DNA of 33,081 nt from Treponema sp. Its GTDB lineage: Bacteria > Spirochaetota > Spirochaetia > Treponematales > Breznakiellaceae. Both the position numbers and the translations under genes were made by a program. Shown in pieces: positions 5,103-33,081 of the stretch. The stretch lies in contig JAITIC010000184.1 of the NCBI GenBank assembly GCA_031279635.1, positions 1 through 33,081 on the forward strand, read 5' to 3'. The notes under the pieces were generated by a model. It did no database searches and had not been told where the DNA came from. It saw only the letters and a program-made list of their open reading frames with translations. The first letter of the stretch is position 1, and every line of letters begins with the position of its first letter.

Positions 5103-6733
5103 GTTCGCTTGTGTTGGCCGAAAAGGTCCGTCTTCTGGACGGGGAAGCCGCCGAATGGGGTCTTAATCCCTTTGCCCTGGTAGAGGCTGCGGGCAGGGCC
5201 TGCGCCGCCGTGTTAGTCAAAGCCTTTCCCCGCTTTTTTGTCCGCCATCCCGCCGGATCGCGGCCCGCGGCCAAAGCGCCGAAAATTACCGTTCTGGCCG
5301 GAAGCGGTAATAACGCCGCCGACTCCCTGGTCATGCTGCGCGCCCTTTTACTGGATGGCCGCGCCGATCTTACCAACGCCCTGGTACTGGTTAGCCGCCT
5401 TCCCGCCGCCGGTGGGGAAACTCCTCTGTCGGAGGCTTTGCTGGCAATTCAAAAGATGGGCGTCTCCGTAAGGGCCTGGGACAGGGAAGAGGCCGCGCTC
5501 TCCGGGGCGGACATTATCATCGACGGCATTGCCGGTACGGGCCTCCAGGGCCCCCTCAGGGGGAAGGCGCTGGAAATGGCCGAAGCGGTGAACAGGCTGA
5601 GGGAAGACCCGCCAGTGGACGGCTCGCCGGGCCGTCCACTGGTGGTTTCAATTGACGTGCCTTCGGGTAATTTTGATGAATGGCGGCCCGGTATGCCGCT
5701 TCTCGCGGCGGACGCCACCCTGGCGATTGAACCCCAAAAGCGCTGCCTGTATACACCGGCGGTCCGTTCCCGCGCGGGAAGAATCCTTTCGGTGGGGGGA
5801 ATCTTTCCCCCTGCGCTTATCGAAAAATACCGGGACGCCGAGCGGCTTTCCTGGCGGGATGCCGCCCGCCGCCTTCCGGAGATATGGGCCGACACGTACA
5901 AGTACGAACGGGGCCTTGTTGAAATCCGGGCCGGGGCAACGGGTACGGCGGGAGCGGCGCGGCTTGCCGCGCGGGGCGCGCAGGCCGCCGGGGCGGGCCT
6001 AGTCCGGCTCATCGTGGACGATTCGCTGTATCCCATTCTCGCTCCGGCCGCCACGGGCATCATGGTTGCGCCCGGCGGCGCTTCTCCCGGCGGGACCTCC
6101 GGCCGTTTTCAGCCGGACGCGGTGCTGCTGGGGCCGGGCTGGGGCAGAGGGCAAGACCGGGCCGCGCTCCTGGAACAATGCCTGCCCCTTGAGGAACAGG
6201 GCGTCCCCCTTATCCTTGACGCCGACGCGGTTTACCTTGCCAAAGGCCTGACTTTTCACGGCAGAGCGATCCTCACCCCCCACGCCGGAGAATTCGCCGC
6301 CTACACCGGTCTTCCCAAAGAGGAAATCCTCGCCGGCCCCGCGCCGGTATTGCGGCGTTTCGCCAAAGAAAAAAACGCGCATATTCTGTTCAAGAGCCAC
6401 GTATTGTACGCGGCGGCCCCCGACGGCAGGCTGGGAATAATTGACGGCATGGCCCCCGTCCTGGCGGCGGGCGGCTCCGGCGACGTGCTGGCCGGTATCT
6501 GCGCCGCGCTGGCCGCCCGCCTGCGCGCCGCCGGAAAACAGCGCGCCTTTGACGGCTATGTCTGCGCCTGCGCCGCGGCCGCCCTGCTCATGGAAGCGGC
6601 CCGATCGCCTGAAACCGCCGGCAGATTTATCGATCCCTCCGACCTGGCCTGCGCGGCGTCATCAATAGCAGGCAAAGCCTGGCTTCCCGCAGACCTCACA
6701 AACAACACGAACAAAGACGATACTATAATATGA
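5099..6733 (+). CDS. nnr: Bifunctional NAD(P)H-hydrate epimerase / ADP-dependent dehydratase
   Basis: This enzyme repairs damaged NAD(P)H: the N-terminal YjeF domain epimerises NAD(P)HX and the C-terminal ribokinase-like domain dehydrates it using ADP. I start it at GTG 5099, which overlaps the upstream stop and follows GGGGAGG by a few bases; an in-frame ATG at 5066 lies inside the lipoprotein gene. The product is 544 residues. The N-domain shows AGSGNNAADSLV (about 67-78), DGIAGTG (142-148) and SIDVPSG (184-190). The C-domain shows LDADAV (373-378), LTPHAGEFAAYTG (392-404) and GGSGDVLAGI (458-467), whose Asp is the catalytic residue. The usual NNGGDG of the epimerase reads NNAADS here, so epimerase activity is less certain than dehydratase activity. 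Confidence 0.9.
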   Translation: MSSLVLAEKVRLLDGEAAEWGLNPFALVEAAGRACAAVLVKAFPRFFVRHPAGSRPAAKAPKITVLAGSGNNAADSLVMLRALLLDGRADLTNALVLVSRLPAAGGETPLSEALLAIQKMGVSVRAWDREEAALSGADIIIDGIAGTGLQGPLRGKALEMAEAVNRLREDPPVDGSPGRPLVVSIDVPSGNFDEWRPGMPLLAADATLAIEPQKRCLYTPAVRSRAGRILSVGGIFPPALIEKYRDAERLSWRDAARRLPEIWADTYKYERGLVEIRAGATGTAGAARLAARGAQAAGAGLVRLIVDDSLYPILAPAATGIMVAPGGASPGGTSGRFQPDAVLLGPGWGRGQDRAALLEQCLPLEEQGVPLILDADAVYLAKGLTFHGRAILTPHAGEFAAYTGLPKEEILAGPAPVLRRFAKEKNAHILFKSHVLYAAAPDGRLGIIDGMAPVLAAGGSGDVLAGICAALAARLRAAGKQRAFDGYVCACAAAALLMEAARSPETAGRFIDPSDLACAASSIAGKAWLPADLTNNTNKDDTII

Positions 6734-7386
6734 GTGACGAAACCGATACACAGGAACCGTCTCTTGGCGCGCCCCAAAGACGGCGGCCCAACGCCGGCTA
6801 CAAACTGAGCAAGGAACGGACCGGCGGTGACCAGCTTAACTTCCATTACTCCCGTGACCGCCGCCTGGAAAAAGCCCCCCAGTCGGTTCGGGACCTGTAC
6901 AAAGAAGAGCCGCCCCGCCGCTTTAACCTGCTGCGGCCCCTCATCGGCAGCAAGCCGCGGGCAATGATGTTCGGCTCCATAGTACTGATATGCGTAACAA
7001 TGCTCACCCTGTCGGTTCTAGGGTATACCGGCGACACCTATTCCCTTGCCGGTAACAGCCTCTTCATACAGGCGGACAACTACGACGGCGCGGTCATGGT
7101 AACGCTGAAAAAAACGATCAAAAAAAACGGCCTCTTCGCCGGAGACGACGCCTACACCGGCGCGGTGGACCTGGCCGTCTCTCCGGCCAATACCGGTTCA
7201 AACGCCGTGGCTCCGCCCGTCTTTTACCACCGCGTTTTTTTCAGCCTGGAAAGCGCGGAAGAATACCACTTTTCCGTTCCCTTTGATTCCGGCGAACTGG
7301 TCATGGTACTGCAGACCGAGAAGGACACCCTCAGCCTCAAGATAAAGGCAAGGGAAGTCCAGCCGGCAATTCCAATTTCAAAATAA
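6730..7386 (+). CDS. Single-pass membrane protein, unknown function
   Basis: The ATG overlaps the nnr stop (ATGA), so the gene belongs to the same operon. The 218-residue protein has a basic, proline-rich cytoplasmic part (1-77), one transmembrane helix at about 78-98 and an extracytoplasmic domain rich in beta-strand-like segments (about 100-218). There is no cleavable signal, so the topology is probably N-in, C-out. I recognise no named family. A TATAAT sequence covers the six bases just before the ATG, but it is too close to drive this start. Confidence 0.72.
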   Translation: MSDETDTQEPSLGAPQRRRPNAGYKLSKERTGGDQLNFHYSRDRRLEKAPQSVRDLYKEEPPRRFNLLRPLIGSKPRAMMFGSIVLICVTMLTLSVLGYTGDTYSLAGNSLFIQADNYDGAVMVTLKKTIKKNGLFAGDDAYTGAVDLAVSPANTGSNAVAPPVFYHRVFFSLESAEEYHFSVPFDSGELVMVLQTEKDTLSLKIKAREVQPAIPISK

Positions 7387-7399
7387 CCACAAGCCCACC

Positions 7400-7829
7400 C
7401 TGCGTAGGCGCTGCACGGACAGACACGGACGAATTAACCAATACCTCGATTATTTCCGCTTTGAGGTTCGCCCAAAAATGTACCGGAAATCCCGCACTTG
7501 TTCCCGCGGCCGAAAGAATATTTGAAAATGCTCTCTGTTCGCCGCCAAGCTTATGTACCGTCGTTATTGCTATTATGCTTCTCCCGACACAGAAAAAATC
7601 AGGGCGGTATACCTGTTTGAGCGGCTTGCCGTCATATAGGGAACGCTTGTTCCGCTTCATAGGGAACTTCGGCCTTTTGCAGCTCAATTTCCAGGCATTT
7701 ATGCGGGCTTTCCGCTATGCAGCCTCCGGGAAACCCGGGCCCGGTTTCCTGTTTACTTCGTAAAGACACCCGCGGATACGAAAACTTTCGTTTTCATACC
7801 GTAGTTTCCCCTTTTTAAACTTTCTGCAT
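7400..7829 (-). pseudogene. Decayed GxxExxY-family gene
   Basis: The GxxExxY family is named for its N-terminal motif; its function is unknown, with a nuclease-like fold suggested. Here the frame gives LYEVNRKPGPGFPEAA and then a TAG where the motif tyrosine should be. Another frame continues CLEIELQKAEVPYEAEQAFP up to a stop. The first frame resumes with YDGKPLKQVYRPDFFCVG, HKLGGEQRAFSNIL and KAEIIEVLVNSSVSV. So at least one nonsense change and several shifts are present. The start region (ATG 7829) also carries one extra base compared with the second copy at 18093. The 3' boundary is approximate. Confidence 0.72.
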
Positions 7830-7890
7830 ACTATTATATCACTTTTATCCGTTCTGTCCGTGATGGTCGGTGGTTGAATTCGGAATCCCT
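7779..7890. repeat. Dispersed repeat, copy 1 (5' region of the GxxExxY gene)
   Basis: About 110 bases here match 18044-18145 with only scattered differences. Shared landmarks are CGAAAACTTTC, TTTTCATACCGTAGTTT, GCATACTATTATATC, TTCTGTCCGTGATGGTC and TTGAATTCGGAAT. The repeat covers the first codons of the GxxExxY gene and the bases upstream of it. Confidence 0.85.
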
Positions 7891-7910
7891 GAAAGTCCAG
7901 CTCATGGCCG

Positions 7911-7940
7911 TTGACCAAAAGGGACTTTCCGGTTTATACT
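7911..7940 (+). promoter_or_regulatory. Strong sigma70-type promoter for the membrane protein / Nudix pair
   Basis: TTGACC (7911-7916), an 18-base spacer and TATACT (7935-7940) form a near-consensus promoter. Transcription would start near 7946-7948. That leaves a leader of about 10 bases containing GAGG (7948-7951) before ATG 7957, which supports 7957 rather than ATG 7945 as the real start. Confidence 0.65.
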
Positions 7941-17954: not shown

Positions 17955-18043
17955 GAGGCAGGGCAAAAGCATTTACTTCCAATTACGGAGAAAGCATCAA
18001 AATTGAAGAAAATTTTACCCAAAAGGCGAATGAGGTTTTGGGC

Positions 18044-18145
18044 CGAAAACTTTCATTTTCATACCGTAGTTTTCCTTCTTTAAATTCCTGCATACTATTA
18101 TATCGGTTCTGTCCGTGATGGTCTGTGCTTGAATTCGGAATTCCT
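18044..18145. repeat. Dispersed repeat, copy 2, with GxxExxY start remnant
   Basis: This is the partner of 7779-7890. On the minus strand it holds an intact first stretch of the GxxExxY gene, MQEFKEGKLRYENESF from ATG 18093. It then runs into unrelated sequence before the GxxExxY motif itself, so only the first 16 or so codons remain. The rest of the 255-base gap between 17954 and the ddl start holds the ddl promoter and nothing else I can identify. Confidence 0.82.
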
Positions 18146-18157
18146 GTGGCCGCGCTA

Positions 18158-18186
18158 TTGACACTTAATCAAATCAGGAATATACA
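18158..18186 (+). promoter_or_regulatory. Near-consensus promoter of ddl
   Basis: A perfect TTGACA (18158-18163), a 17-base spacer and TATACA (18181-18186) predict a start near 18193. The leader is then about 19 bases and contains GGGGGA before TTG 18212. The promoter begins 13 bases after the repeat copy ends. Confidence 0.75.
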
Positions 18187-18211: not shown

Positions 18212-19312
18212 TTGGGGAAAAAAACAGTCGTGGGTATTCTCTTTGGCGGCAAGTCCGCTGAGCATGAGGTTTCCCTGCAATCAGCCCAAAATGTGTATGA
18301 CGCCATTGACCGGAATAAGTTTGAGCCGGTACTCATCGGCATTGATAAATCCGGGCGCTGGCTCTTAAACGACGAATCCCGTTTCCTGCTGAACTCAGGT
18401 GATCCCAGGCGGATCAGTTTGAGTCCAGACGGCGAGCCTGTGGCTCTGGTCCCCGAAAGCGCCGGATTACTCTCCGGCCTGGACGGTGCGGGGTATGCCG
18501 GGCCGGGGCGGCTCGACGTGGTTTTTCCGATCCTTCACGGCCCCTTCGGCGAGGACGGCACGGTACAGGGACTGTTGAAACTGGCGAATATTCCCTTTGT
18601 GGGGCCGGGAGTTCTGGGCTCCGCCGTGGGCATGGACAAAGACGTGATGAAGCGGCTGCTCAGGGACGCGGGGATTCCGGTGGGGAAATTCCTGGGGTTT
18701 CAGTCCCACAGGCCGGTTCCCGCGTTTGCCGAAGTTTCAGGCGTCCTGGGGCTGCCTTTTTTTATCAAGCCGGCGAACATGGGTTCTTCGGTGGGGATCA
18801 GCAAGGTGCATGATGAGGGGGAATATTCCGGCGCGGTAAAAGGCGCTTTTCAGTACGATACCAAGATCCTCGCGGAGGAATTTGTTTCCGGCCGGGAACT
18901 GGAGTGCGCGGTGCTGGGCAGCGAAGAACCGGCCGCGTCGGTTCCGGGGGAGATTATTTCCTCGCATGAATTCTATTCCTATAACGCGAAATACCTTGAT
19001 GAAAAAGGGGCGGCGCTGGATATCCCTGCGAATATCCCCGAAGAAACCCAAAAGCGGGTGCGGGAACTGGCGATCAAAACTTTTCAGACGCTCTGCTGCG
19101 AGGGGCTTTCCAGGGTGGATTTTTTTCTTAAAGAGTCAGGAGAGCTTGTCGTCAACGAGATCAACACCATGCCGGGTTTTACCAGGATCAGCATGTACCC
19201 GAAACTGTGGGAAGCCTGCGGCATCAGCTATACGGAACTTATCAGCCGTTTAATAGATCTGGCGATAAGACGCTTTGAAAAAGAGCGCGCCTTAAAGACC
19301 AGCGTGGTGTAA
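18212..19312 (+). CDS. ddl: D-alanine--D-alanine ligase
   Basis: Ddl joins two D-alanines with ATP to make the dipeptide end of peptidoglycan precursors. I start it at TTG 18212, because GGGGGA lies 5 bases upstream and the promoter at 18158-18186 excludes the in-frame GTG 18125. The resulting 366 residues match DdlA-type enzymes. Visible marks are [18 protein letters not shown] at the N-terminus, [15 protein letters not shown], the ATP-grasp loop [14 protein letters not shown], the omega-loop segment FYSYNAKY, and [17 protein letters not shown], which carries metal- and substrate-binding residues. The Tyr in the omega loop fits D-Ala-D-Ala rather than D-Ala-D-lactate synthesis. It ends two bases before the end of the convergent kinase gene, with no terminator seen. 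Confidence 0.95.
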
Positions 19313-32945: not shown

Positions 32946-32977
32946 CATTACGCATTACCTGAACAGCAGTTTTACAT

Positions 32978-33081
32978 TTAGCCATCGGGATCATCTTCCA
33001 TGGTCACGAAGCCGATAAAGTCCTCCCACGTTTGAAACAGATACCGGCTGAATATCATCCGTAACCCCGCAAAAAACTCAT
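32978..33081 (-). CDS. Transposase, C-terminal end (cut by window edge)
   Basis: The frame gives 33 residues ending in LFQTWEDFIGFVTMEDDPDG and TAA (32980-32978). It matches the tail of the dead transposase at 1225-1827 (WEEFLIFVLDDDPGG). The similarity continues past the stop codon (ATGTAAAACTGCTG here, ATGTAAAATTGCTG there), so both are ends of the same IS family. No stop or shift is visible in this part, so this copy may be intact outside the window. Confidence 0.75.
   Translation of the reverse strand, partial: EFFAGLRMIFSRYLFQTWEDFIGFVTMEDDPDG

Follow-up and report, generated by a model that had tools for sequence, protein, structure and literature searches.

A high-copy, MITE-like repeat family with a GxxExxY nuclease-gene core in a Treponema genome

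What is the start of a GxxExxY gene doing directly upstream of the ddl promoter of a spirochete, and does the repeat that carries it move, regulate, or do neither? The window analyzed here is the whole 33,081-nucleotide stretch of contig JAITIC010000184.1 of Treponema sp. (assembly GCA_031279635.1, hereafter G000; 3.1 Mb in 276 contigs, completeness of 91%, estimated contamination of 5.4%). A preliminary description had noted that about 100 bases before ddl recur roughly 10 kb upstream, that both stretches carry the first GxxExxY codons on the other strand, that each lies just before a strong plus-strand promoter, and that the element may travel as a unit and end up next to promoters or influence them. 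The repeat is real: in a genome search, 18044 to 18146 and 7779 to 7891 proved 83% identical in an alignment that has small gaps (E = 1.1 × 10−27), and its ungapped pieces match at 81 to 90%. In both copies (the upstream copy A and the ddl-proximal copy B), the GxxExxY first codons (..YENESFR) are read from the minus strand, and both promoter sequences are present, TTGACC-18-TATACT starting at 7911 on the plus strand and TTGACA-17-TATACA at 18158 to 18186, to which the rule of our scanner (T at position 6) gives no score. What had to be redrawn were the borders. Copy A spans 7364 to 7892 and copy B spans 17959 to 18146; thus, the repeat first described is the inner section common to two larger objects (Table 1).

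Table 1. Coordinates of copy A, copy B, and adjacent features in the window
Feature	Position	Strand	Basis
Left target-site duplication of copy A, AAGTCCAGC	7355-7363	.	9/9 match with 7893-7901
Copy A, complete 529-bp element	7364-7892	-	End-motif pairing and target duplication
Terminal inverted repeat, copy A 3' end, CGGCAATTCCAATTTCAA	7364-7381	+	End-motif search
Iterated boxes CACGGAC-AGA-CACGGAC within copy A 3' end	7414-7431	+	Sequence
GxxExxY (PDDEXK_3-type) pseudogene, one in-frame TAG	7472-7786	-	TIGR04256, 29.8 bits, E = 1.4e-6
Promoter-like CGGACA-16-TATAAT before GxxExxY pseudogene	7833-7860	-	Consensus match only
Iterated boxes CCACCGACC-ATCACGGAC-AGAACG, copy A 5' end	7850-7873	-	Sequence
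Terminal inverted repeat, copy A 5' end, CAGGGATTCCGAATTCAA	7874-7891	-	End-motif search
Right target-site duplication of copy A, AAGTCCAGC	7893-7901	.	9/9 match with 7355-7363
Promoter TTGACC-18-TATACT of next gene, outside copy A	7911-7940	+	Scan; ancestral by comparison with relatives
Copy B, chimeric element remnant	17959-18146	-	BLAST, end-type search, junction search
Second end type, CAGGGCAAAAGCATTTACTT	17959-17978	+	Same end encloses ISAs1-type transposase remnant at C247
Linker to junction with GxxExxY leader	17979-18043	.	Common to C161, C212, C263
GxxExxY first codons, leader, CACGGAC boxes (repeat first described)	18044-18128	-	Sequence, BLAST
Terminal inverted repeat of copy B, CAGGAATTCCGAATTCAA	18129-18146	-	End-motif search
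TTGACA-17-TATACA before ddl, outside copy B	18158-18186	+	Sequence; unscored by scanner
ddl, D-alanine--D-alanine ligase, start codon inferred	18212-19312	+	NF002525, 506.8 bits, cutoff of 457

The search for further copies that the preliminary description had proposed returned 119 occurrences of the end motif CNGSAATTCCGAWTTCAA in G000 when up to 2 mismatches were allowed, whereas the reversed motif, used as control, gave 1 (0 + 1); about 100 of these places were at hand singly. Within the window itself, up to 3 mismatches gave three matches where 0.42 is expected. BLAST with the copy A leader, in which scoring covered 40 of 82 first-look candidates (40 of 86 in a second repeat search of the genome), located at least 43 places, and defined ends are visible in the 30 leader matches that were displayed. 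The outer 18-bp inverted repeat of the family reads C(A/G)G(G/C)AATTCCGA(A/T)TTCAA. Pairs and junctions were sought in 260 kb of G000 chosen around matches, where 27 convergent pairs of ends were found; one of these (19 bp, with overlapping motifs) was dropped, leaving 26 with 57 to 528 bp between the outer edges of the motifs. Copy A is the longest of them, and 22 are short (57 to 170 bp), too small for a GxxExxY gene. Direct 9-bp duplications matching in at least 8 of 9 bases flank 12 of the 26 pairs (over 200 permutations the mean was 0.11, and no permutation gave more than 1), with fewer than 8 matching bases at the remaining 14, and the profile over duplication lengths peaks at 9. Terminal inverted repeats, a target-site duplication (9/9 in copy A), and many dispersed short copies are features of a miniature inverted-repeat transposable element (MITE), and as such the window family is a variant of an established element type. 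It is nearly private to this genome, as BLAST with a short family element found it in 2 of the 59 genomes searched (G000 and G023). The suggestion that the repeat travels as a unit is thus borne out by the dispersed copies, their defined ends, and the 9-bp duplications, together with a chimeric junction that recurs at four places.

That junction lies in copy B. Its right end belongs to the same family as the ends of copy A, and its left end is a different repeat end, which occurs at 30 places in G000 with up to 3 mismatches (control, 0). Among the loci examined, the two end types are joined in this same way in copy B and at C161, C212, and C263, which argues that the chimera itself has spread. 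No target duplication flanking copy B was seen by eye. At C247, the second end type encloses a 107-aa open reading frame (ORF) matching PF13808 (E = 5.7 × 10−9), the N-terminal domain of ISAs1-type transposases. PF13808 was recovered at three places in G000: this 107-aa remnant, a sequence containing a stop, and a 172-aa frame that runs open to the edge of contig C182.

The gene inside the family is broken. At 29.8 bits, the copy A pseudogene lies below the TIGR04256 cutoff of 35. Three places in G000 reach E = 0.001 with this profile, each with one internal TAG, and the same stop codon is present in all five BLAST-found copies that reach that codon. The regular expression used for this comparison recognized only T/CAG at the position; the five copies had first been found by BLAST with a query ending before the codon. 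A stop shared by five copies is explained most simply if they spread after the gene broke, so the break in the gene probably predates the dispersal of the gene-bearing copies, a timing we deduce from the observed sharing; alternatively, the shared stop could stem from gene conversion. Neither copy A (529 bp) nor copy B (188 bp) contains a reading frame of transposase length. At one other GxxExxY copy (contig C261), a palindrome, GAGCCTGTTTCAAAACTAATTG..CAGCCTC, splits the leader, and similar REP-like palindromes surround several further GxxExxY copies.

The account that we favor, at a probability of roughly 80%, is that the window repeats belong to one high-copy, nonautonomous, MITE-like family with a GxxExxY core, moved in trans, likeliest by an ISAs1-type DDE transposase. 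The core would be a small PD-(D/E)XK nuclease gene between inverted arrays of approximately 10-bp boxes (here CACGGAC), accompanied in the lineage of G000 by the outer 18-bp inverted repeat. Insertion duplicates 9 bp, as the direct repeats around 12 of the 26 pairs show; copy A settled with a stop codon on one side and the promoter of the following gene on the other, and copy B is the chimera of two end types present at four places. Movement in trans is argued for by the 22 of 26 pairs that are too short for the gene, and the CAGG ends, the chimera with an ISAs1-type end, and the transposase remnants in the genome point to an ISAs1-type mover. ISAs1-family insertion sequences (ISs) have CAGG(G)-type ends and produce 8- to 10-bp duplications. 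The window family resembles them in its CAGG-type ends, its 9-bp duplication, and the PF13808 match beside the second end type; unlike them, its repeats are too short to encode a transposase, so no DDE transposase lies between the ends. An autonomous IS bearing the CAGGAATTCC end was not found in about 2 kb around each of the three PF13808 places, where the nearest match has at least 6 mismatches, or in the 210 bases immediately inward of each of the 45 unpaired ends displayed. As the frame at the C182 edge runs open, an intact ISAs1-type copy may be missing from the assembly.

The main competitor for the role of mover is the GxxExxY protein itself. Matches to GxxExxY occur in 21 of the 59 genomes of the set of relatives, where 22 intact genes score 121 to 148 bits against TIGR04256; three intact genes were tested against PF13366 (PD-(D/E)XK nucleases) and matched at E = 10−38 to 10−40. 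Residues D62, E72, K74, and Q86 (with the E72-x-K74 spacing) are invariant in 40 of 40 aligned proteins. A predicted model of an intact GxxExxY protein reached a pLDDT of 93.8, and its best structural match in the PDB was SSO0001 (Foldseek E = 7.1 × 10−4; Z = 10.2, root mean square deviation of 3.3 over 97 residues); by sequence, the PDB yielded a single weak match (E = 0.11). The intact proteins of relatives therefore combine PD-(D/E)XK residues with the predicted nuclease fold.

We assembled 102 GxxExxY loci, comprising the best 80 of 570 confirmed loci from many phyla and 22 of 32 rows from relatives, the latter without fragments and the broken copies of G000 itself. Inverted repeats of iterated boxes frame the intact genes of relatives near their start and stop (e.g., CCACGAACCACACGAAC). 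An inverted-repeat score of at least 16 was reached by 56 of the 80 loci versus 6 of 441 shifted positions at the same loci; pairing the upstream region of one locus with the downstream region of another reached 16 in 87 of 636 cases, an excess over the shifted control that is expected if box flavors are common between loci. Inverted iterated repeats flank 75 of the 102 GxxExxY loci, leaving about a quarter without the pattern at that cutoff, versus 3 of 44 other genes and 5 of 49 neighboring ORFs. In 52 of the 66 elements scoring at least 16, the best self-offset of an arm is 9 or 10 bp. Box content in these 66 elements also follows the relatedness of the proteins (Mantel r = 0.335, reached in 0 of 2,000 permutations), for which coinheritance alone could suffice.

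One such locus allows an insertion to be read from gene order. Between ffs and dnaX of the relative G006 lies a GxxExxY element, in a gap of 561 nt. We compared 21 same-genus loci of 30 returned, 4 of which had no ffs within the sequence examined; among the 17 with ffs, 14 have a gap of 57 to 169 nt, and G016 and G005 have gaps of 350 and 1,146 nt. On this sequence comparison, the G006 copy is an insertion. At the dnaX gene of G000 itself, the end of an element (GTCCGTGTTGGTCCGTG...GTAAAACTCCTG) lies directly upstream, and the corresponding 130 bases of G023 hold none.

If an intact GxxExxY protein, since lost from G000, had mobilized the family in trans by cutting at the boxes, the 9-bp duplication would be its signature. 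Boxes are indeed visible within the ends of the G000 elements, their flavor tracks the protein as just described, the catalytic residues and the confidently predicted fold are those of a nuclease, and the G006 copy is without a counterpart in the 14 short-gap relatives. Against this, the correlation between boxes and proteins is also expected from mere joint descent, a profile search found no intact GxxExxY in G000, and generic GxxExxY elements give a weak duplication signal. In the 76 elements of 430 to 658 bp retained for the duplication test at a score cut of 14 (the 66 used for box relatedness and for the G-U comparison below were cut at 16), at least 5 identical flanking bases occur in 30 (39%, versus 28.6% when shuffled) and at least 6 in 11 (14% versus 8.5%); runs of at least 7 occur in 2 of the 76 (versus 2.3% when shuffled), and none of 8 or 9 was seen. 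The 9-bp duplication therefore seems tied to the outer ends and not to the GxxExxY core, and we regard the protein as a rather unlikely mover of the G000 family.

The core by itself seems to belong to a type of mini mobile element that occurs widely and is organized around a small nuclease gene. GxxExxY is a protein family named after a motif; the framing by boxes, the tracking of box flavor, and the ffs-dnaX insertion suggest a function for it that can be tested, namely that of the protein encoded by such a mini element. We also entertain, tentatively and at well under even odds, a joint reading in which GxxExxY elements form a self-moving class of minimal elements, the S23 elements form a parallel one, and the window family is a decayed branch whose ends were captured by an IS. 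The stand-alone PD-(D/E)XK nuclease would then recognize arrays of approximately 10-bp boxes at both ends and move the element with no need for a transposase of the DDE, serine, tyrosine, or HUH type; in the parallel class, around the S23 four-helix-bundle gene, the boxes would be 7 to 8 bp.

The S23 comparison ties GxxExxY to the old puzzle of intervening sequences. In the Coxiella S23 intervening sequence, three tandem GACAGAT heptamers precede the start codon, and the article that describes it (PMC4990558, cited from excerpts) considers it a possible former mobile element. The intact GxxExxY loci of relatives are similar in having one small gene between inverted ends of iterated units; in contrast to the four-helix-bundle S23 protein, theirs is a PD-(D/E)XK nuclease, the unit is 9 to 10 bp, and the window copies lie between protein genes, outside 23S rRNA, with no clear sign of constraint on an RNA stem. 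The four-helix-bundle profile TIGR02436 had no match in G000, and we tested 11 of 15 rows from relatives (L289 to L296, L302, L303, and L297). The inverted-repeat score is at least 16 in 9 of the 11; L293 is marginal, its score of 14 barely exceeding its best control (13.5), and L297 gives no signal. Among the 10 arms with a repeat, the best offset is 7 in four, 8 in two, and 14 in four. By analogy, then, GxxExxY elements look like a nuclease-bearing counterpart of S23 elements. This shared plan, seen in the excerpted S23 account (PMC4990558) and again in the 7- to 8-bp units around the four-helix-bundle genes of relatives, also lends some appeal to an RNA-level explanation, under which the inverted ends would pair within the transcript into a stem that RNase III cleaves, as happens with the intervening sequences of 23S rRNA. 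We consider it improbable: a G-U bias is not clearly evident among the mismatches between the arms of the 66 elements (95 versus 87 transitions), and the G000 copies carry duplications of their DNA target.

Of 25 relatives matching gene 6730-7386, 19 loci were compared at the copy A site, and in 14 of them the next gene (MIQLYFLS...) is kept beside the orthologue. The intergenic gap is 27 to 68 nt in 13 of these 14 and 173 nt in G005, versus 570 nt in the window; 13 of the 14 have a TTGAC box 35 to 38 nt upstream of the start of the next gene (G014 has none), and the element of copy A is absent from all 14 gaps. Since the box is kept without the element, the promoter is older than the element: copy A brought no neighboring promoter and entered a gap that already held one. 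That the element might end up next to promoters or influence them, as the preliminary description proposed, thus finds no support. The promoter-like site of copy A itself (CGGACA-16-TATAAT, 7860 to 7833) points away from the downstream gene. Around ddl, 19 of 30 relatives' loci were displayed, and in 13 of the 18 read by eye ddl directly follows another gene, with gene order varying between relatives; in G017 and G009, inspection by eye shows a promoter-like site upstream of ddl and no repeat of the copy B type there. It is likely that copy B brought no ddl promoter either. A mobile cassette with a regulatory role, providing promoters or adjusting them in the manner of Correia elements, could have been read from the promoter-like site in copy A and from the end of each window copy less than 20 nt from a plus-strand promoter. 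We consider this reading, too, improbable, given that the neighboring promoter predates copy A, that the internal site faces the other way, and that the hexamer spacing of that site is shortened in copy B. The case cautions that such repeats beside promoters need not mean regulation; insertion of mobile elements explains the repeats in the intergenic gaps of the window.

Two further observations concern the copy A site. The last codons and stop of gene 6730-7386 (..QPAIPISK) come from the inverted repeat of copy A and adjacent bases (7364 to 7386). We rejected the possibility that copy A truncated this gene with the promoter at 7911 as former coding sequence, as the genes of relatives end before the same promoter. 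In G005, the same gap is occupied by an inverted-repeat element that has no gene, contains AACAGTTAACAGT units, and is unrelated to copy A, which suggests that elements have landed at this site more than once.

A single ancient gene duplication that left a gene remnant at ddl, which the preliminary description had reserved for the case that no further copies exist, would account for the GxxExxY first codons in copy B and can be dismissed in view of the further copies: 119 end motifs, 26 pairs, 9-bp duplications, and a junction at four places.

Among known repeats, MITEs in general lack a transposase and duplicate their target. The window family is like them and like the Correia elements in being short, high in copy number, inverted at the ends, mobile, and often near genes; it differs from Correia elements in that its core descends from an element with CACGGAC box arrays around a GxxExxY nuclease gene, in the 9-bp duplication and the chimeras with an ISAs1-type end, and in a promoter beside copy A that the element did not supply. 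Excerpts of two articles (PMC2649163 and PMC10969869) describe the Correia elements (CREE) of Neisseria as short, high-copy, mobile repeats with inverted ends, often beside genes. A second comparison is with REPINs and their RAYT proteins. RAYTs are single-strand (HUH/Y1) transposases. The window family shares with REPINs the nonautonomous repeats and a proposed movement in trans, and it differs from the REPIN/RAYT system in that the PD-(D/E)XK nuclease gene sits inside the element. In the excerpts of PMC3116915 and PMC8266576, REPINs are palindromic and nonautonomous, and the protein proposed to mobilize them in trans is encoded by the genome in which they reside. An excerpt of PMC8934634 names the GxxExxY/PDDEXK_3 domain in passing, and excerpts of PMC12085832 and PMC9756366 mention GxxExxY, PDDEXK_3, PF13366, or TIGR04256. 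A GxxExxY mini element is not described among the literature matches listed, a search whose scope lay outside preprints and most subscription journals, and the matches listed for MITEs of termites or Treponema, four-helix-bundle, REPIN-like, and ISAs1-MITE elements likewise hold no description of the present ones.

Elsewhere in the window, Rfam at gathering scores matched nothing except a tmRNA gene at 780 to 1126 on the minus strand (RF00023, 159.8 bits). A third end type, CAGSARTTTTACATTTA, is present at 1211 to 1227 and 32964 to 32980, near both ends of the window, which are those of the contig (two matches, 0.03 expected), and it recurs without mismatch in 7 of the 335 loci examined; the assembly may break at repeats of this type.
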